Shown here: positions 13,246 to 27,846 of the stretch, one piece after another
Layout of the letters: every line of letters begins with the position of its first letter
Numbering within the stretch: position 1 is the first letter of the stretch
Assembly: GCA_019186825.1 (NCBI GenBank)
Contig: JABARP010000010.1
Location: forward strand, 111,037-175,036
DNA length: 64,000 nt
DNA from: Pyrinomonadaceae bacterium
GTDB lineage: Bacteria > Acidobacteriota > Blastocatellia > Pyrinomonadales > Pyrinomonadaceae
Direction: 5' to 3'
Made by a program: the position numbers and the translations under genes
The notes under the pieces: model-generated
The model's input: only the letters and a program-made list of their open reading frames with translations
The model's database searches: none
Told to the model about the DNA's origin: nothing

Positions 13246-13542
13246 ATGATGGGCGGCCGAAGCTGGGACGACTGGATCGAGGAATATCAGAAGGCGCACG
13301 AGCATCCTGTGAACCGCCTGACACACACGTTCGGCATACCGATGATCGCGATCGCGATCATACTTCTACCGATCGGCTTCTTTGTGAAATACGTCTGGCT
13401 TGCGGCGGCTATTCTTTTTGTCGTCGGCTGGATACTGCAATTCGTCGGGCATTATTACGAGGGCAAGCCGCCCGAATTTATGCGCGATTACCGCTTCCTT
13501 TTCGTCGGCCTCCGCTGGTGGCTCAAAAAGACCTTCGGTTGA
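13246..13542 (+). CDS. Mpo1-like (DUF962) membrane protein
   Basis: A 98-residue membrane protein of the Mpo1/YGL010w family. The N-terminal WIEEYQKAHEHPVNRLTH carries conserved histidines, two hydrophobic helices follow (about 35-75), and the C-terminal GHYYEGKPPEFM holds another. The yeast homologue is an iron-dependent dioxygenase of 2-hydroxy fatty acids; whether this short bacterial form is active is unknown. The start was chosen because AGGAG at 13231-13235 is well placed for the ATG at 13246. Confidence 0.85.
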   Translation: MMGGRSWDDWIEEYQKAHEHPVNRLTHTFGIPMIAIAIILLPIGFFVKYVWLAAAILFVVGWILQFVGHYYEGKPPEFMRDYRFLFVGLRWWLKKTFG

Positions 13543-13552
13543 ATCTTTCCTT

Positions 13553-14896
13553 TTGCGCGCAGACGAGAATCCACTCATTTTAGCTATCGACAACGGCTCA
13601 TCGAGCGTTCGCGCGGGCCTCTTTGACGCGACGGGCCGCGAGGCCTGCGAGATCGTCAAGATCAAACGCGCTTTCCAAACGGGCTCGAACGGTGAATCGG
13701 AGCTTGATCCTTTGGCGGCGATAGCTCAGACCGGAAACGCGATCGACCGCCTCTTTGCGTCTGATAAAGCTGCGTTTGTGCAAAATGTATCAATTTGTGC
13801 ATTTTGGCACAGTTTGTGCGGAATGGACTCGAATTCTGAACCGACAACGCCGATACTAGGATGGGCGGACACGAGAGCCCGCGAGTATTCGACGCTGCTA
13901 AAGCAGAGTTTCAATGAAAAGGAGATCCACGAGCGAACAGGTGCACATTTTCATTCGAGCTTTTGGCCGGCAAAGCTCCTTTGGATCCGCGAACAACGGC
14001 CCGACATATGGAAGCGGACAACGCATTGGGTCTCCTTCTCAGACCTCTGCCAACTGAGGCTTTTCGGCGACGCACGGACGAGCGTTTCGATGGCATCCGC
14101 GACGGGAATGTTCGATCAGGCGACGCTCGCATGGGATACGGAGCTGTTGGATTTCATCGGCCTCGATCAGAACCAAATGCCTGAGATCGCTGGGAGCGGC
14201 AGCACGATCCATCCGTCCCTAGAAGCGTTGACGCGTTGGCCGCAGCTATCGAATGCCGACATTCTGCCGGCGATCGGCGATGGTGCCGCGGACACGCTCG
14301 GTGCCGGTTGCAGCCGGTTGGGCGAAGCCGTCCTGATGGTTGGAACCTCGGCGAGTATGCGGATGATGTACGAGGGCGAACCGCCGCGAAATCTGCCCGA
14401 AGGCCTTTGGTCATATCGCCTTGATGAACGGCGCGTTGTCGTCGGCGGAGCACTTTCGGACGGCGGCAATCTGATCTCGATGCTCCGTAGAAAGTTCGGC
14501 GTAAAGGGCAATATTACGCAAGAGCTGCGGTCGAGAACGCACGATCGGAGCTTACGCGTCGAGCCGTATTATTTCGGCGAGCGAAGTACGGGCTATCGCG
14601 AGGACGCAAAGGGCGAGATCATCGGGCTCGACGCTCGGCATGACGGCATCGATGTAATTCACTCTGCGATGCACGCGATTGCCGACAGGCTCGCGGATAT
14701 CGCCGAAAGGCTTGAGCGGACCGCTCCGATCGAGTCAATTCAGGCGTCCGGCGGAACGCTTCGTGAATATCCGGTCTGGCGCGAGATCATCGAAGAGAAA
14801 CTTGGGCGGCGGATCATGCCGTCGAATACGCGTGAATCATCCCTGAAAGGCACTGTTTTGCGTGCGGCCGAAAGACTTGGCAATATAGAAGTTTAA
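13553..14896 (+). CDS. FGGY family carbohydrate kinase, gluconokinase-like
   Basis: ATP-dependent sugar kinase of about 447 residues. The N-terminal phosphate-binding motif [24 protein letters not shown], and the C-terminal ATP-site segments [21 protein letters not shown] and [11 protein letters not shown] fit the FGGY fold. The GDGAA segment is closest to bacterial gluconokinases. The reading frame stays open upstream into the Mpo1-like gene, but coding character begins about 13562. A TTG at 13553, 11 bp after the previous stop, is the best start, and no ATG is available nearby. Next to transketolase it suggests feeding the pentose phosphate pathway; the substrate is inference. Confidence 0.85.
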
Positions 14897-14952
14897 CGCA
14901 CTCTCATAAACGCGAGCCTTTTGGCAATCAATTGAAAAACATCTATCGAATA

Positions 14953-16980
14953 ATGGCTAACAAAACCTCCAATAACCTCGACCAGCTTTGCATTAACACC
15001 ATCCGCACGCTTTCGCTTGATGCGATACAGAAGGCGAATTCCGGCCATCCGGGCCTGCCCTTGGGCATGGCGCCGACAGCGTATGTCATCTGGACAAAGT
15101 TCCTGCGGCACAACCCGAAGAACCCGAAGTGGTTCGGCCGCGACCGCTTTTTGCTCTCGGCCGGCCATGGCTCGATGCTGCTTTACAGCCTGCTGCATCT
15201 GACGGGTTATGACCTTTCGATGGAAGACATCAAGCAGTTTCGCCAGCTTCATTCGAAGACGCCGGGACACCCGGAGAATACGCGGACTCCGGGCGTCGAG
15301 CTGACGACCGGGCCGCTCGGCCAGGGATTTGCGAATGGCGTCGGTATGGCAATTGCCGAAAGGCATCTCGCCGCACAATTCAACAAACGCGGCTTTCCGG
15401 TCGTTGATAACTGGATCTACGGCATCGTTTCGGATGGCGACCTGATGGAGGGCGTTTCTTATGAGGCGGCGTCGCTCGCCGGGCACCTACAGCTCTCAAA
15501 TCTGATCTATCTATACGACGACAATCAGGTTACGATCGACGGCTCGACCGACCTTGCTTTCACCGAAGACCGAACGAAGCGTTTTGAGGCCGCGGGTTGG
15601 TACGTTGACGAGGTGCAGGATGGCAACGATATCAAAGCCATCGAGCAGGCGATCCGCCGTGCGCAGAAGGTCAAGGACAAGCCGAAGCTCATCCGCGTGC
15701 ATACGATCATCGGCTTCGGAATGCCCGCGCAAGGCACTCACAAAGCACACTCCGACGCTCCCGGCGACGCGGCCGTTCGCGAGACGAAGCGTAACCTCGG
15801 CTGGCCTGAGAACAAAAAGTTCTTTGTGCCGAAAGAGGTGCTTGCGCACTTTCGCAAGGCTGTAAAAGACGGTGCGAAGCGTGAAAAGGATTGGAACGCG
15901 CTCGTTTCGCGATACGAGAAGGAACACAAGGATCTTGGCGCAGCATTTCGTGCGATCCGCTCGAGTGTGCTGCCCGACGGTTGGGAAAGTGCCCTGCCGG
16001 CGTTTGCGGATGTTGAGGCAAAGGCGACGCGTGCATACTCGGGCGAGGTCATTAACGCGATCGCTGATAAGATCCCGGCAATGCTCGGCGGTTCGGGCGA
16101 TCTTACGCCATCGAACAACACTTACATCAAATCGTCGAAGAATTTCGAGCCGGGGAATTATGCGAACCGCAACCTCCATTACGGCATACGCGAACACGGG
16201 ATGTCGGCCGTGATGAACGGCATCGCGCTCTTTGGCAGCACGATCCCTTTCGGCGGAACATTCCTGACGTTCTCCGATTACGCACGGCCTGCCGTTCGGC
16301 TTGCGGCCCTTTCGGAGCTACAAACGATCTTCGTCTTTACGCACGATTCGATCGGGCTTGGCGAAGACGGCCCGACCCATCAATCGGTCGAACATATCGC
16401 CGCATTGCGTGCCATTCCTGATCTTGCCGTAATACGCCCGTGCGACGCTCACGAGGTGCGAGAGGCATGGCGTGCGGCGCTGAAGAATACGGTTGGGCCG
16501 ACCGCGTTCGCACTCTCGCGGCAGAAGGTTGCGGTCATCGACCGAAAGAGATTCGCGGATGCAAAGGGCTTGCACAAGGGTGCGTACATCCTAGCGGAAG
16601 CACAAACAAAATCGGGCAAAGCGACCACGCCGAAGCTCATCCTGATCGCAACGGGCTCCGAGGTCGGGCTCGCAATGGAAGCACGCGAAAGGCTGCAGGC
16701 GGAAGGCGTCGCAACGCGAGTTGTCTCGATGCCTTGCTGGGAATTTTTTGACGCACAGCCGCAGAAGTATCGCGACGAGGTCCTGCCGCCGCGTGTTACC
16801 GCACGTCTCTCGATCGAGGCCGGTGTTTCGCTCGGCTGGGCGAAATACGTCGGCGACAAAGGCGCTTCGCTCGCGGTCGATCGCTTCGGCGAATCCGCAC
16901 CCGGCGACGAGGTCTTCCGTGACTACGGATTTACGGTCGAGAATGTCGTAAGACTTGCGGAGAAAGTTACTGGGAAATAG
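14953..16980 (+). CDS. tkt: transketolase
   Basis: Thiamine diphosphate enzyme moving two-carbon units in the pentose phosphate and Calvin-type pathways; about 675 residues, full length. The ThDP motif [19 protein letters not shown] leads to [14 protein letters not shown]. Substrate-binding histidines are seen in SGHPGLPLG and [11 protein letters not shown]. The pyrimidine domain holds [16 protein letters not shown], the classic transketolase signature. An earlier in-frame TTG at 14932 would add seven residues; the ATG at 14953 gives the usual N-terminus. It follows the FGGY kinase by 56 bp. Confidence 0.96.
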
Positions 16981-17399
16981 GGGTATCTACAGAACGCGCG
17001 CCTAGATGCGTCTAGCCTTTCGATCGTGCTGGTCAGGGGACTTGAATTTGCCGCAAGCTGACTCGCTTTTTGGAAAGGCGTTGGAGTGGCTTGTTAACGC
17101 GTCCAAAAAAAAATCTAGCGGCAGACTGTTCGCGTGGCTCCAATTGCCGCTGTCCAAACTGTCATACCGCCCACCAAGAAGAGTAGGCTTTATCGGCGAT
17201 CGTGTCAATCGGAAAATGCCAGCATTCGGACCGTATAAGGCGCGCTTGGATCAAACATTTAAGATCGGAAATTTCAGATATAAAGTTCAAATTTAGATCT
17301 CAAAACATAAGATCTGAGATCTGAGGTTTTATATTTCAGATCTAAAATGCTCACAATTTAAGATCTCAAATCCCAAATTTGAAATCACCGTAGGGCCAG
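16981..17399 (+). other. gene-free stretch between tkt and a minus-strand HVA1 gene
   Basis: A 419-bp interval with no recognisable gene. The first 280 bp are of ordinary composition and contain open frames on both strands (such as 17006-17296) that resemble no family and have no ribosome site. A small inverted repeat CTAGA-TGCG-TCTAG sits just after tkt. The last 130 bp turn strongly AT-rich and hold the AGATCT cluster listed separately. Confidence 0.6.
17295..17366. repeat. cluster of five AGATCT palindromes in AT-rich DNA
   Basis: AGATCT occurs at 17295, 17310, 17317, 17338 and 17361. The first and fourth copies sit in a perfect 9-bp inverted repeat, TTTAGATCT (17292-17300) and AGATCTAAA (17338-17346). 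Related words such as ATTTCAGAT and GATCTCAAA recur on either side. It looks like a decayed short-period repeat between the convergent tkt and HVA1 genes. Confidence 0.75.
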
Positions 17400-17615
17400 T
17401 CAATCGATCTTTGTGAGGGCGGTGCCTTTGTGGGCGGCGATGTGGTCGGTCTTGTCGCTCTTGATCTCGTATTGTGGATGTTCGGGGTCGGCGCGGTGTG
17501 GATGGCCCTTGTAGTCAAAATCCGCGTCGTGGATCTTGATGATATGACCGGATACGTATCCTGCCTCGGAGTTCCATTTTACGTGATCGCCTACCTTGAA
17601 TTCCTCGTCTGACAT
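17400..17615 (-). CDS. HVA1/DUF2945 family small protein
   Basis: A 71-residue protein starting MSDEEFKVGDHVKWNSEAG. It matches the DUF2945 (HVA1, Tudor-like) family: a small beta-barrel with VKWNS, GHIIKIHDADFDYKG and HPQYEIKSDKTDHIAAHKG. Members are short stand-alone proteins of unknown function. It is convergent with tkt. Confidence 0.85.
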   Translation of the reverse strand: MSDEEFKVGDHVKWNSEAGYVSGHIIKIHDADFDYKGHPHRADPEHPQYEIKSDKTDHIAAHKGTALTKID

Positions 17616-17665
17616 TTCTCCATCTTACCGTGCGCGGGCAGCACTGAGCCATCGCGAGCGAGCCG

Positions 17666-18856
17666 TCAGAAGAGTTTCGTGACTGCTCGCCTGAACTTGT
17701 CGTAAACGCTCGGCTTGCCCTCGGGAGCGATCACATTCGTGTTGAAGACGATGATCGACGCCTCACCCTTGTCAGGGTCAAGATCGAGATAGCTGATGAA
17801 GCCGTTCTGATCGCCGCCATGGCCGATGTGCCGCGGGGCGAGCTTTCTATCGATGAAGAATATCAGGCCGATGTCGGTCGTAAAACCGCTGTTGCCGTTC
17901 GCATCGACGGTCGTAGGCAATTGCGCTTTCCACATTTCTTCGAGCGACGAGCGCTTGAGAACAGTGTCATAGCGCGTCAGATCTTTCTGTCCGCCCGCCG
18001 CGGGCGGTCCCGAAACACCAAGCAAGAAGTTCAGATATTTCACCATGTCCGAGAGCGGAGAATTTAGCCCGCTGTTCGAGACGGTTATGCCCGTGTTCGC
18101 ATCAAAGCGTGCTTCCGTACGCTTGGGGTTCTCGATGTAATACGAATGCGGGCGGAATTTGAGCAGATGCGGCGGCGTCGCGTCGAAATATGTGTGAAAC
18201 ATTCCGAGCGGCCGCAAGATATTCTTGTCAACATAAACCTCGTAATCTTCGCCCGAAAGTTTTTCGATGATGCGGCCGAGGAAAATTATTCCCGGATTGG
18301 AATAGCTGAATTTCGAGCCGGGTTTGAAGAGTATCTCGGTGAAAGGCAGCATCGCCACAAGCTGCGAATATTCGGTCGGTTCGAATGGCTCCCAAGGTTC
18401 GCCTTTGTCCCACGGCCATGTCGGATTTCTGAATCCGGCCGAGTGCGTCATCAGTTGCCGGATCGTGATCTCGTCCATCGAACCGTATGGGTTGTGAACC
18501 TTTCGCAGTTCGGGCAGATACTTTGTCACCGGATCGTCCAATTTCAACAGCCCTCGATCACGCAGCTGCATTATCGCGATACCAGTGAACGGTTTTGTGT
18601 TCGACGCCCAATGATAGATCGTATCGCGCGTAACGGGCTCATTTTTCCCGGCTTGCATTACGCCGAAATGTTCCTCAGCGGCGATCCGGCCATCGCTCAA
18701 AAAAATAAAGCTCGCCCCGACAATTCCGGCATCGCGACATTCTTTTTGAAAATCAGCAATGAAGGACGCGTACTTCGCGGCTTGCTTTTCGGATTGGGCC
18801 GACATAGTTGAGGAAAGCAGGATGCCGAGCATGAGAAGAACGACGAGTTTCATCAT
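17666..18856 (-). CDS. serine hydrolase, class C beta-lactamase/esterase family
   Basis: Exported 396-residue serine hydrolase. A signal peptide (about 1-20, ending SAQ) is followed by the catalytic SxxK tetrad SNTK in YHWASNTKPFTG. The YxN motif is YSN in SYSNPGIIFLG, and a C-terminal HGGDQNG takes the place of KTG. These features fit the AmpC-like fold shared by D-aminopeptidases, esterases and penicillin-binding proteins. True beta-lactamase activity cannot be claimed, because the His-Gly-Gly form is more usual in the peptidase/esterase branch. Peptidoglycan or small-ester substrates are plausible. Confidence 0.88.
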   Translation of the reverse strand: MMKLVVLLMLGILLSSTMSAQSEKQAAKYASFIADFQKECRDAGIVGASFIFLSDGRIAAEEHFGVMQAGKNEPVTRDTIYHWASNTKPFTGIAIMQLRDRGLLKLDDPVTKYLPELRKVHNPYGSMDEITIRQLMTHSAGFRNPTWPWDKGEPWEPFEPTEYSQLVAMLPFTEILFKPGSKFSYSNPGIIFLGRIIEKLSGEDYEVYVDKNILRPLGMFHTYFDATPPHLLKFRPHSYYIENPKRTEARFDANTGITVSNSGLNSPLSDMVKYLNFLLGVSGPPAAGGQKDLTRYDTVLKRSSLEEMWKAQLPTTVDANGNSGFTTDIGLIFFIDRKLAPRHIGHGGDQNGFISYLDLDPDKGEASIIVFNTNVIAPEGKPSVYDKFRRAVTKLF

Positions 18857-19612: not shown

Positions 19613-19618
19613 TATAAT
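19613..19618 (+). promoter_or_regulatory. candidate -10 box upstream of the truncated alaS
   Basis: A consensus TATAAT lies 17 bp before the ATG at 19636, in an AT-rich pocket. No good -35 is seen at 17 bp spacing; GACTTT at 18 bp is the nearest. The predicted leader is very short. If used, it shows the truncated synthetase gene is transcribed by itself. Confidence 0.35.
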
Positions 19619-19635
19619 ACAATATAGCTTTTATT

Positions 19636-21525
19636 ATGTCGGCTTACGAAGGACTTTCAGAATCGAAGCAGTTTGCGTGTCGTGTAATCGCGGATCACGC
19701 GCGTGCGACGGCGTTTGCCATTGCGGACGGTATTTTGCCGGGCAACGAGGGCCGCAATTACGTGCTGCGCAAGATAATGCGGCGTGCGATCTATCATGGC
19801 CGCGAGCATCTCGGGCAAAAAGAGCCGTTCTTTTACAAGGTCTGTGACCTCGTCGTCGAGAACTTCGCGGCGGCTTATCCGGAACTCGAAACGCAACGCG
19901 ATTTCATCGGCAAAATGGTGCGGCTCGAGGAAGAGCGTTTTGGAAACACGGTGACGGTAGGTTTGGGAAAACTTAGCGAGCTCGATCTTTCGAAAGCAAA
20001 GGCGGACGACGGCGAACTCTTTATCTCGGTTGCAAAACTTTACGACACTTTCGGAACGCCGCGAGATCTGATCCGCGTTTTTCTTGAACAGAGTGGGATC
20101 GCTTTTGAAGAAGATGATTTCAACGAGCGTTTCGATGCGGCGTTGACCGAGCTGCAGAAGGAATCGGGTATTGGCAAGACCGAGCGCAAGAGCGAGATTT
20201 CGCCCGTATATGCCGAAGTGCTCGAAGCGGTAGGGAAGAACGTTTTCCACGGTTACGAAACGACCGAGCTCGACAACGCAAAGGTTGTCGCGATCATCGA
20301 CGGCGATAAGCGGTTCGATGCCGTGAAAGAAGGCGAGCAGGCGGGCATCGTCCTCGACAACACGCCATTCTACGCAGAATCCGGAGGACAGGTTGGCGAT
20401 CAGGGTGTGCTGATCGCAGCCGATGGGAGTTTCCGGGCAAACGTATCCGATACGTATTCGCCGGTCGCGGGATTGACCATTCACAAGGTTACGGTCGAGA
20501 AAGGTTCGATGAAGGTTGGCGACGTGATCTCTGCGTTCGTCGATGTTGCCAAACGCGACGCGGCGAGACGGAACCATACGGCGACCCACCTTCTACATGC
20601 CGCGCTCAAAGAGGTTTTGGGTACGCACGTAAAGCAGGCAGGCTCGGTCGTTGCGCCGAATTATTTGAGGTTCGATTTTTCTCATTACCAACCGATGACC
20701 GCGGAGGAGATCGCAGAGGTTGAGGACCTTGTGAACCGCTATGTCCTTCAGAATGAACCGGTTACGACAGATATAATGGCGATCGAGGACGCGATGCGTT
20801 CGGGTGCGGTCGCGATGTTCGGCGAGAAATACGGCGCCGAGGTCCGCGTATTGAGCGTCGGCAATGGCGAATTCTCACGCGAACTTTGCGGCGGTACGCA
20901 CGTTCGTGCGACCGGCGATATCGGCTCATTCAAGATCACATCGGACGAAGCGATCGCCTCGGGCGTTCGCCGTATCCGTGCGATCACGGGGTTTGATGCA
21001 TTCAACAGATTCAGGGAAGACGAACGGCTCATAGACGCCTCGCTTGGCGTCTTAAAGACGCAGCGTGACAACCTCGCGAATGCGATCGAACGTCTTCAAG
21101 AAGATCTCAAGCGTTCGCGAAAAGAGATCGATGAACTTCGGCTGAAGATCGCGACGGGCGGTGCCGCAGGCGACGCCGGTGACGACCCGCGAGACATCGC
21201 AGGCGTGAAGGTTGTGGCAAAGGTCGTCGATGGCATCGACGGTAACGGAATGCGCCAGCTTTCGGACACGCTGCTCGCTCGCCTTAAGTCAGGCATCGTC
21301 GTGCTCGGACGTCGCGACGAGGCGAAGGCCGGCCTGATCGTACGTGTTTCCGCGGACCTGACCAACCGCATAAAGGCGGGCGACGTGATCCGCGAGATCG
21401 TCGGCCACGTCGGCGGCAAAGGCGGCGGACGTCCCGACATGGCCGAAGGCGGTGGCAATATGCCGGAAAAACTAGAGGACGCTATAGATGCCGCTTACGT
21501 TTATGCTGAAAGGATACTGAGTTAA
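19636..21525 (+). CDS. alanyl-tRNA synthetase-like protein lacking the aminoacylation domain
   Basis: Intact 629-residue reading frame matching AlaRS from the tRNA-recognition helices onward. The familiar RVIADHARATAFAIADG begins at residue 16; in full-length bacterial AlaRS (about 870 residues) this lies near residue 300. The class II catalytic domain with motifs 1-3 is therefore absent. An in-frame TAA at 19615 rules out an upstream extension. The editing site is complete: H314 and H318 in HTATHLLH, with C418 and H422 in CGGTH. The C-Ala domain with GGKGGGRPDMAEGGG is present. It is either a trans-editing factor removing Ser/Gly from tRNA-Ala, half of a split AlaRS, or a truncated relic. 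The open frame and full editing site favour function. Confidence 0.85.
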   Translation: MSAYEGLSESKQFACRVIADHARATAFAIADGILPGNEGRNYVLRKIMRRAIYHGREHLGQKEPFFYKVCDLVVENFAAAYPELETQRDFIGKMVRLEEERFGNTVTVGLGKLSELDLSKAKADDGELFISVAKLYDTFGTPRDLIRVFLEQSGIAFEEDDFNERFDAALTELQKESGIGKTERKSEISPVYAEVLEAVGKNVFHGYETTELDNAKVVAIIDGDKRFDAVKEGEQAGIVLDNTPFYAESGGQVGDQGVLIAADGSFRANVSDTYSPVAGLTIHKVTVEKGSMKVGDVISAFVDVAKRDAARRNHTATHLLHAALKEVLGTHVKQAGSVVAPNYLRFDFSHYQPMTAEEIAEVEDLVNRYVLQNEPVTTDIMAIEDAMRSGAVAMFGEKYGAEVRVLSVGNGEFSRELCGGTHVRATGDIGSFKITSDEAIASGVRRIRAITGFDAFNRFREDERLIDASLGVLKTQRDNLANAIERLQEDLKRSRKEIDELRLKIATGGAAGDAGDDPRDIAGVKVVAKVVDGIDGNGMRQLSDTLLARLKSGIVVLGRRDEAKAGLIVRVSADLTNRIKAGDVIREIVGHVGGKGGGRPDMAEGGGNMPEKLEDAIDAAYVYAERILS

Positions 21526-24355: not shown

Positions 24356-25372
24356 TTAGGCGGAAGCGGCCTGCGTGCATTCGTGATTCTGCGAGGCGGC
24401 AAACACCATTGGCGGCGCAAGCGTGATCGGTTCCTCGATGTTCGGATCATCGCTCTTCTCTCGCGAAGTAATGAGAGCGACAGAGCCGACAACGATCGCG
24501 GCTCCGATGAGCATCGTCGTGGTCAGCGTTTCGCCTGCGATGAACCACCCGAGCAGCACCGCGATCAGCGGATTCACATACGCGTAGGTTGCGACCATCT
24601 CGGGCTTCGCATTCTTCAAAAGCCAGCTATAAGCCGTATAGCCGATGATCGCACCAAAGACGATCAAGTAAGCGAGGCCGTATAGCGAGGCGGCGGAAAC
24701 CTGCGACACATCGAAATTTGCAGCTTCTCCACGGAGCGTCCCGACGACACCGAGGACGGCACCGCCCGCAAGCATCTGCATTCCCGCGGTCAGGACAGTT
24801 GACTTCGGTACGGGAGCTTTCAAGCCATAGATCGAGCCGACCGCCCACGAGATCGATGCCGCGATAAGCAGCAGCATCGCGAGGAATTCGGTTCCCGAGC
24901 CACCGCCAACGGTCTGGAAATTACCGCCGATGAGAAGTGCGACGCCGATAAAGCCGACGACAAGGCCGACGATCATTCGCAGATTCGGCCGTGCGTTCTT
25001 GAGCCACAGCCAGCTGAGCAGAACGACCCAGAAAGGCTCCGACGCAACAAGCAATGCCGCAACGCTCGACGAAACATACTTCTCCGCAAGCACGACGCCG
25101 CCGTTACCGCCGAGCAGCAAAAGCGTGCCGACGATAAAGCTCGTCCGCCAATGCTTTGCGGTCGGGCGTTCGTAGTCGCAGCTAAAACGCGCAATGGCAA
25201 AAAGGATCGCACCGGAGATCAGGAATCGCGTACTCGCCATAAGAAGCGGCGGTAGCGTCTCGATCGCATAACGGATCGCGAGATAGGTCGAGCCCCACAA
25301 AATATAAACAGCGGCAAATGCTGAAACTAAAAGGGCCGTGCGGCGGCCCATTCCGGTGATCATCTTTGTCAT
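24356..25372 (-). CDS. EamA/DMT family exporter, YedA-like
   Basis: A 338-residue inner-membrane protein with about ten hydrophobic helices in two repeated EamA halves. The first half begins AAVYILWGSTYLAIRYAIETLPP, given here as residues 19-41. The second half holds IVFGAIIGYTAYSWLLKN and AYVNPLIAVLLGWFIAGE. These motifs are typical of the drug/metabolite transporter superfamily near YedA/RhaT. A Lrp-type regulator gene lies 25 bp upstream on the same strand, which suggests export of an amino acid or related metabolite. The substrate is inference. Confidence 0.9.
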   Translation of the reverse strand: MTKMITGMGRRTALLVSAFAAVYILWGSTYLAIRYAIETLPPLLMASTRFLISGAILFAIARFSCDYERPTAKHWRTSFIVGTLLLLGGNGGVVLAEKYVSSSVAALLVASEPFWVVLLSWLWLKNARPNLRMIVGLVVGFIGVALLIGGNFQTVGGGSGTEFLAMLLLIAASISWAVGSIYGLKAPVPKSTVLTAGMQMLAGGAVLGVVGTLRGEAANFDVSQVSAASLYGLAYLIVFGAIIGYTAYSWLLKNAKPEMVATYAYVNPLIAVLLGWFIAGETLTTTMLIGAAIVVGSVALITSREKSDDPNIEEPITLAPPMVFAASQNHECTQAASA

Positions 25373-25397: not shown

Positions 25398-25892
25398 TCA
25401 TTTCTTCTTCGCCTTTTCGCCACGCCCTGTTTTCTTCGGCTGAGGGCGGTCGATCGGCGGCATCATTCTTTCCTTGACCGTCTCTATGACGATCGTCGTT
25501 CGTGTCCCGCGAACGGTCGGCACTGATTTGATACTCTCGCGAATGATGCGTCCGAGGTCTTCGGTATCCTTTGCGCGGATCTTCAGCAAATAATCGTCTT
25601 CACCCGCAAGGTCGTGGACCTCGATTATCTCCGGCACATCGGCAAACAGGTCCTCGCAGATCCAATCGGTCGTCCGCACGGCGACAAAGGCCGTAAGGCC
25701 GAGATCGAGCGGCCGCGGTGCGATGTCTGCGTGATAGCCGCGGATAATGCCTCGTTCCTCTAGCTTCCGAATGCGTTCGAGTACCGCCGACGGTGCAAGC
25801 CCGACCGTACGGGCGATCTCTGCGTTCGAGATCCGGGCGTTGTCCTGAACTATCGTCAGAATCTGCTTGTCAATATCGTCAATCATACGCAA
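25398..25892 (-). CDS. Lrp/AsnC family transcriptional regulator
   Basis: A 164-residue regulator. An N-terminal helix-turn-helix (DIDKQILTIVQDNARISNAE, then APSAVLERIRKLEERGIIRG) is followed by the RAM ligand-binding domain (VHDLAGEDDYLLKIRAKD). The C-terminus is Lys-rich. The protein may start at 25886 (MIDDIDKQ). It precedes the EamA exporter gene and probably controls it in response to an amino acid; that link is inferred from position. Confidence 0.92.
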   Translation of the reverse strand: MRMIDDIDKQILTIVQDNARISNAEIARTVGLAPSAVLERIRKLEERGIIRGYHADIAPRPLDLGLTAFVAVRTTDWICEDLFADVPEIIEVHDLAGEDDYLLKIRAKDTEDLGRIIRESIKSVPTVRGTRTTIVIETVKERMMPPIDRPQPKKTGRGEKAKKK

Positions 25893-26256: not shown

Positions 26257-27846
26257 ATGACGTCAAAGAGTTCAATGGCTATGACGGCGAAGGAGCTGAT
26301 ATCGACAAACCCCGCCACGGGCGAGGAACTCGGCCGTGTCCCCATCACATCTTCCGAAGATGTTGCGACGGCGGTTGCAAACGCACGCGAAGCATCGCGG
26401 ATGTGGGCTTTGACGCATTTTGAGGAACGAGCGCAGCTTGTGATGCATGCGCGCGAGATCATCCTGTCCGAAATGGATGAGATCGCAAAGTTGATATCCG
26501 CCGAAACGGGCAAGCCCGTGAGCGAGGCGATCTCGATGGAGATCGTGCCGGTGCTCGACCTGATGCAGTTCTTCGCACGCAAGGCGAAAAAGATCTTGCG
26601 TCCGCGTCGTGTCGGCATCGGGCTTTACAGTTTGCTTGGCCGACGCTCGAAGATCATCTATAAGCCGTGGGGCGTTGTCGGGATAATTCCCGCGTGGAAT
26701 TATCCGTTTTCGATACCGCTGGGCGAAGCGGCGATGGCGTTGATGGCGGGGAACACCGTTGTCATAAAGCCCGCCGAATCGACGTCGCTTACGGGCCTGA
26801 AGATCGGCGAGATCTTCGCCAAAGCGGCCTTTCCGGAAGACGTCGTGACCATTGTTACGGGTGCGGGCGAAACGGGTGCGGCCCTTGTCGCGGCGGCGCC
26901 GGACAAGATAATGTTCACGGGTTCGGTCGCAACCGGCAAAAAGATCGCCGAAGGATCCGCAAAGCACCTGACCTCGACGGTTCTTGAACTCGGCGGGAAA
27001 GATCCGATGGTCGTCTTCGCCGATGCGAATCTCGGGCTTGCCGCGAAGGCCGCGGTCTGGGGTGCGTTCTGCAACGCGGGGCAATCGTGCTCTTCGGTCG
27101 AGCGTCTATACGTCGAATCTTCCGCCGCCGAAAAGCTCACCAAACTGATCGTCTCGGAAACAAAACAGCTAAAACAGGGCATTGGTACCGATGACGACGT
27201 CTCTGTCGGCGCAATGTCCTCCGAGCGGCAGATAAGAATCGTTGAAGATCACGTCGAGGACTTTCGCCGAGCCGGTGCAAAGATCGAGACCGGCGGACGA
27301 CGAAACGCAGACGCGGGCGTCCGCGCTCCGTTATTCTACGAACCGACGGTGATCACGGGTGCGACCAACGAGATGCGCGGGATGCGCGAGGAAACGTTCG
27401 GGCCGACGCTGCCGATCGCGGTTTTTGAGACTGAAGAACAGGCGATCGAGCTTGCCAACGATAGCGAGTTCGGCCTGACGGCGAGCGTCTGGAGCGGTGA
27501 CCGAGCAAAGGCACGGCGTGTTGCCGCACACATTCACGCTGGTACGGTCACAATCAACGAAGTTCTCTATACGCACGGCATAGGGCAAACGCCTTGGGGC
27601 GGCTTTAAGAATTCGGGCCGCGGGCGAACGCACGGCATCGAGGGCCTTTTCGAGCTTGTCCAGCCGCAGCACATTCACGAGAACCTTCTGCCGCTCGCAC
27701 CCGATGCGTGGTGGATGCCGTATTCGAAGAACGCGGGACAGACCTTCCGCAAGTTCGCACACACCTTTGCCAGCGGTTCGGTCCTGAAAACGATCGCGTT
27801 GGTCCCGACGCTGTTAAAACGTATCAAAGAACTTATAAGAGAATGA
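26257..27846 (+). CDS. NAD(P)-dependent aldehyde dehydrogenase
   Basis: A 529-residue member of the ALDH superfamily that oxidises aldehydes to acids. The catalytic general base is Glu244 in VLELGGKDP and the nucleophile Cys278 in NAGQSCSSVE. Cofactor-binding PWGVVGIIPAWNYPF and the GSVATGK loop are present. An extra C-terminal stretch of about 40 residues ends in a hydrophobic/basic segment (SVLKTIALVPTLLKRIKELI) that could anchor to membranes, as in fatty aldehyde dehydrogenases. Substrate preference is not determinable. It abuts the small upstream gene, and the hairpin array follows it. Confidence 0.92.
   Translation: MTSKSSMAMTAKELISTNPATGEELGRVPITSSEDVATAVANAREASRMWALTHFEERAQLVMHAREIILSEMDEIAKLISAETGKPVSEAISMEIVPVLDLMQFFARKAKKILRPRRVGIGLYSLLGRRSKIIYKPWGVVGIIPAWNYPFSIPLGEAAMALMAGNTVVIKPAESTSLTGLKIGEIFAKAAFPEDVVTIVTGAGETGAALVAAAPDKIMFTGSVATGKKIAEGSAKHLTSTVLELGGKDPMVVFADANLGLAAKAAVWGAFCNAGQSCSSVERLYVESSAAEKLTKLIVSETKQLKQGIGTDDDVSVGAMSSERQIRIVEDHVEDFRRAGAKIETGGRRNADAGVRAPLFYEPTVITGATNEMRGMREETFGPTLPIAVFETEEQAIELANDSEFGLTASVWSGDRAKARRVAAHIHAGTVTINEVLYTHGIGQTPWGGFKNSGRGRTHGIEGLFELVQPQHIHENLLPLAPDAWWMPYSKNAGQTFRKFAHTFASGSVLKTIALVPTLLKRIKELIRE

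Follow-up and report, generated by a model that had tools for sequence, protein, structure and literature searches.

A probable two-gene alanyl-tRNA synthetase in the bacterial genus OLB17

What can an alanyl-tRNA synthetase (AlaRS) gene without an aminoacylation domain be doing in a bacterium? This question is raised by a 64,000-nucleotide stretch of contig JABARP010000010.1 (hereafter the window), from a member of the genus OLB17 (Pyrinomonadaceae, Blastocatellia). In this window, the first-pass annotation had noticed an intact 629-codon gene with an in-frame stop just upstream, which kept four editing-site residues and the C-Ala glycine motif and lacked the aminoacylation domain, and had proposed that it was either a large trans-editing factor or one half of a split AlaRS. 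The gene, called here the C-half, has the following layout.

19636–21525, + strand: open reading frame of the C-half, 629 codons (629 aa), AlaRS without catalytic domain according to profile matches
19636–19680, + strand: junction codons 1–15 (MSAYEGLSESKQFAC), common to split C-halves across genera, unlike fused sisters
19660–20544, + strand: C-terminal part of PF01411, beginning with the tRNA-recognition helices and containing N37 and D137 (Pfam, alignment)
20575–20589, + strand: editing-site HTATH (H314, H318), residues intact in the alignment
20842–20976, + strand: tRNA_SAD domain PF07973 with CGGTH (C418, H422), residues intact (Pfam, alignment)
21205–21495, + strand: DHHA1/C-Ala domain with GGKGGGR (residues 593–599) (Pfam, alignment)

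These initial observations were borne out. Only 6 codons are open before the ATG, with in-frame stops just upstream of them. Pfam matched PF01411 at positions 266–549 of 552, together with PF07973 and PF02272 (DHHA1), and NCBIfam TIGR00344 (alaS) was matched over positions 265–847 of 847 with 522 bits, so that the aminoacylation domain is indeed missing. By alignment, the HxxxH and CxxxH editing motifs and the C-Ala motif GGKGGGRPDMAEGG, which begins at residue 593, are all intact, as in members of the AlaRS family. Besides, N37 and D137 are conserved and align with the Asn and Asp that read the G3:U70 pair; they are the probable equivalents of E. coli N303 and D400, the residue roles being taken from PMC10036535.

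Then, the genome was searched for a full-length alaS or an N-terminal half, as the annotation had suggested. A search of the 3.2 Mb genome with PF01411 gave exactly two matches, on different contigs: positions 265–549 in the window and positions 1–259 at C1:26561–27367 (– strand). No full-length alaS was found by this search. The second match lies in the following gene.

G000:C1:26561–27379 (= L001:1501–2319), – strand: N-half (alpha), open reading frame of 272 codons, class II catalytic core (PF01411)

The N-half aligns with residues 6–268 of E. coli AlaRS and contains class II motifs 1–3, so that the genome also holds the catalytic hallmarks of an AlaRS. The tRNA-Ala(GGC) of the genome keeps G3:U70. 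No AlaX was recognized in the genome, since the sole other tRNA_SAD match, an open reading frame of 670 aa, is taken to be ThrRS.

The same division was found throughout the genus, in which 41 genomes were sampled. None of them carries a full-length alaS, including assemblies of 2, 7 and 8 contigs, and both halves are present in 39 of the 41 (one half is partial in each of G005 and G017); G030 has the N-half only and G104 has neither. The N-half ends, and the C-half starts, at a constant place across the genus, the C-half opening with M[SA]xYExLxExQQFACRVIADHAR. In the alignment with A. aeolicus AlaRS, the break falls between residues 252 and 264, before the tRNA-recognition domain, and is thus a single site in the linker that joins this domain to the catalytic one. 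An alignment of 30 fused AlaRS has 191 invariant columns, and the 32 split sequences retain 189 of them, including all 77 of the N-half. Within the genus, the ratio of non-synonymous to synonymous substitutions (dN/dS) is 0.015–0.05 for the N-half and 0.06–0.18 for the C-half, with higher values (0.08–0.11 and 0.26–0.29) in two pairs from other, likewise split genera. Both halves are under strong purifying selection in the genus. The finding that would have spoken against a functional split, namely full-length genes in the close relatives beside a lone copy under relaxed selection, was not made. Full-length alaS genes appear among class-level relatives. In the phylum sample, no lone N-half was seen outside the family among the matches listed, bar one that reaches a contig end.

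Both halves of AlaRS therefore exist in this genome, nothing else in it can replace them, and they are conserved through the genus with their catalytic and recognition residues. The gene of the window very probably encodes the beta subunit of a two-gene AlaRS, whose products would pair without a covalent link. In such an enzyme, the alpha subunit (272 aa, motifs 1–3) would make alanyl-adenylate, and the beta subunit, which also holds the editing site and C-Ala, would read G3:U70 by its helices; docked non-covalently, the two would then behave as a normal AlaRS. We infer this association and activity, as well as the evolutionary path set out below, from sequence. Two observations weigh against this reading. 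The ratio of C-half to N-half distances is 2.19 in the genus vs 1.48 in fused relatives; the C-half thus evolves faster relative to its partner, and some relaxation or adaptation is possible. In addition, AlphaFold2 modeled the C-half only moderately from a 10-sequence input (mean pLDDT, the predicted local distance difference test, of 64.9; pTM, the predicted template modeling score, of 0.31) and poorly from the single sequence (pLDDT of 43.8).

The enzyme shares its domains and invariant residues with standard bacterial AlaRS (TIGR00344), and has fused relatives in its family and class. It differs in that the standard form is one polypeptide of ~900 aa, whereas OLB17 makes 272 + 629 aa from two loci. 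The closest parallel is the AlaRS of Nanoarchaeum equitans (NEQ547/NEQ211), which likewise consists of two genes, a catalytic alpha and a beta with editing and C-Ala domains. According to PMC10036535, mixing alpha and beta restored activity and G3:U70 specificity. However, the N. equitans break lies inside the tRNA-recognition domain and that of OLB17 before it. Moreover, N. equitans is an archaeal symbiont, whereas OLB17 is bacterial, its member studied here has a genome of 3.2 Mb, and the split extends through the genus with intermediates. Nst1 has an undivided AlaRS (PMC3655853). The Tupanvirus mini-AlaRS is also a natural departure from the usual architecture, but in OLB17 the enzyme is divided without loss of any part. 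In PMC10036535, AlaRS is described as the sole aminoacyl-tRNA synthetase with one prototype architecture throughout biology, N. equitans excepted. The two-gene AlaRS of OLB17 would be a second exception, in ordinary-sized genomes rather than in a reduced symbiont. N. equitans was the only split AlaRS found described in the literature, and no paper on OLB17 mentioning a tRNA synthetase was found, subscription journals being mostly outside both searches; OLB17 thus appears to hold the first bacterial split AlaRS. Its natural alpha/beta pairs could be used to test domain communication in charging and editing. Besides, a "truncated alaS" annotated in OLB17 should not be taken for a fragment.

The other half of the initial proposal fared less well. 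If the C-half were chiefly a large trans-editing factor, the 272-aa N-half would have to charge tRNA-Ala alone as a minimal synthetase. The fully conserved editing site would suit such a role, and so would the weak, G3:U70-independent activity that PMC10036535 reports for N. equitans alpha alone. However, the N-half has no tRNA-recognition helix at all, the C-half keeps N37 and D137, and E. coli N461, although longer than the N-half, binds tRNA-Ala poorly and cannot rescue yeast (PMC10036535). Because the C-half has the sole AlaRS tRNA-recognition helices of the genome, and because there is no other alaS to proof-read, a pure trans-editing factor is unlikely. Nor does the C-half resemble AlaX beyond the shared editing domain. 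The AlaXM model NF040865 matches residues 228–448 only weakly (113 bits vs a cut-off of 300), and AlaX is a stand-alone editor beside a complete alaS, whereas this genome has no complete alaS and the C-half, with its tRNA-recognition helices and C-Ala, is its only AlaRS C-part.

Readings in which the division is not real, or is undone, are less probable still. Trans-splicing of RNA or a split intein could rejoin the halves, and N. equitans does have other broken genes and joins tRNA halves (PMC3655853); yet only a few residues separate the end of the N-half from the break, the C-half opens at a conserved ATG without an intein-like extension, and no Rfam intron was found in the inserts described below, the N-half locus or the window. 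Joining by an intron or an intein was rejected on these grounds and would be most improbable. A pseudogene, an assembly break or a chimeric metagenome-assembled genome might be suspected, many of the genomes being metagenome-assembled. Against this stand the identical two ends in 39 genomes and in 8 more from other genera, contigs of up to 1–2 Mb with conserved flanks, and dN/dS far below 1. Genus-wide conservation, long contigs and dN/dS rule out a pseudogene or assembly break, and artefacts of this kind are hardly credible here. The two-subunit AlaRS remains the preferred reading.

How did the halves come apart? In relatives with an intact or adjacent-split alaS, the gene has truB on its 5′ side and/or EamA-Lrp-ALDH on its 3′ side. 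In this genome, truB adjoins the N-half, and the C-half is followed by the other set. The neighbors of the C-half that bear on this point are listed below.

13400–18856: FGGY kinase, transketolase and serine hydrolase, right-hand portion of the ~18 kb interval between the halves in G020 and G031
24356–25372, – strand: EamA, 3′ flank of alaS in relatives
25398–25892, – strand: Lrp/AsnC, 3′ flank of alaS in relatives
26257–27846, + strand: ALDH, 3′ flank of alaS in relatives

Since EamA, Lrp and ALDH follow alaS in these relatives, the C-half locus corresponds to the ancestral 3′ flank of the gene. Hence alaS was cut in place, and its two loci keep both ancestral flanks. In G020 and G031, the halves lie on one contig, 17–19 kb apart and in the same orientation, and in G011 on one contig, 15 kb apart and in opposite orientation. 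The genes flanking the break in the window organism match both ends of the G020/G031 interval, so that a later rearrangement within this interval separated the halves here.

The same break occurs in other genera of the family. In G092, G135, G139, G070, G068, G075 and G101, the stop of the N-half is followed by an insert of 0.55–1.07 kb and then by the C-half; in G067, the N-half stands alone. The alaS of their congeners G138, G140, G141, G069, G072 and G074 is fused. The inserts encode BrnT (PF04365), PemK/MazF (PF02452), a Y1 transposase (PF01797) or, with a weak match, a nucleotidyltransferase, and their DNA is homologous between genera (G068/G075, 80% over 646 bp; G135/G075, 70% over 483 bp; G139/G070, 73% over 243 bp; G070/G101, 74% over 455 bp). 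In an AlaRS tree built without the junction, a single split clade was rejected (approximately unbiased test, p-AU 5e-83), which rules out a single origin as one clade, and the starred branches force at least 5 split/fused changes, a count in which gain and loss are indistinguishable. In four split genes, residues 1–12 of the C-half match other splits at 58–75% and fused sisters at 0–27%, while the regions flanking them follow the species. Over its opening ~15 codons, the C-half agrees with the insert rather than with the species tree, and several genera share an almost identical sequence in the initial 45 nt. The fused genes with long linkers of G061, G062, G065 and G088 carry the split-type signature and may be re-fusions.

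In relatives, alaS is broken at the same codon, and a toxin-antitoxin or transposase gene often occupies the gap; this suggests a way in which an essential gene could be divided rather than lost. At first, a short gene-bearing insert would have supplied a stop codon to the N-half and a start codon to the C-half; it would then have grown to ~18 kb, and a rearrangement would have broken the enlarged interval and dispersed the halves. As a tentative proposal, this codon region of alaS could be a landing site for small toxin-antitoxin/transposase cassettes that bring the N-half stop and the C-half start with ~15 codons, cut the essential gene while leaving the cell viable, and spread between genera by recombination at alaS, with a permanent two-gene enzyme in OLB17 and perhaps re-fusion in g21 and g31. 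It is also possible, with similar reserve, that each lineage acquired the break on its own and that the shared start MSxYExFDEQKxFAC is convergent, an extra helix turn being needed once the linker is cut. The mixture of split and fused genes in the tree, with its rejected split clade and at least 5 changes, would fit independent breaks, as would the signature in fused long-linker genes and the AlphaFold2 model, which places it at the start of helix 9–30. However, the homologous insert DNA and the near-identical first 45 nt speak against them. In either case, intact, long-linker, adjacent-split and dispersed forms coexist in the family, which opens a stepwise study of an essential multidomain enzyme becoming two subunits.

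The C-half also has a promoter-like element of its own, whose TATAAT had hinted at a promoter in the initial annotation; its conservation adds to the support for the two-gene reading.

19613–19623, + strand: –10-like element TATAATACAAT upstream of the C-half, conserved hexamer across the genus

The TATAAT itself lies at 19613–19618, 17 nt 5′ of the ATG. In 28 of 29 genus members, a TATAAT-like hexamer (≤1 mismatch) lies 6–19 nt 5′ of the ATG; other offsets yielded 0–2 and shuffled sequences ≤14, and its presence is more than chance. A Shine-Dalgarno-like sequence precedes the C-half in 2 of the 29. A –10 box so near the ATG would fit a near-leaderless mRNA. As for the N-half, it is followed in most genus members, often within ~100 nt, by a LuxR-type response regulator (L001:861–1481 and orthologues), and co-transcription of the two is possible.

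A few further observations concern the loci of the other genera. The halves are separated by BrnT, PemK/MazF-like, AbrB-like and Y1 (REP-type) transposase genes at L033:1442–2253, L035:2822–3374, L036:1364–2323 and L041:2589–3423. The nucleotidyltransferase-like gene (weak PF10706/PF14907/PF19502) at L034:2856–3471, L039:1348–2420 and L040:1322–2022 is homologous in three genera; in two of these three loci it is followed by a small MSPEAVTxRLKxMEQLW protein, with which it looks like an undescribed toxin-antitoxin-like pair. PADLOC gave no match on the insert proteins. Long-linker fused AlaRS with a YDxFDxxKKFACRV signature at the split site were seen at L038, L037, L130 and L139. In G131 (L043), the AlaRS match lies within a 1796-aa open frame with ~60 profile positions missing, either a fusion or an assembly fault. 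Finally, an Acido-Lenti-1 RNA (RF01687) is located just upstream of the N-half in G135 (L034:4379–4427, – strand).
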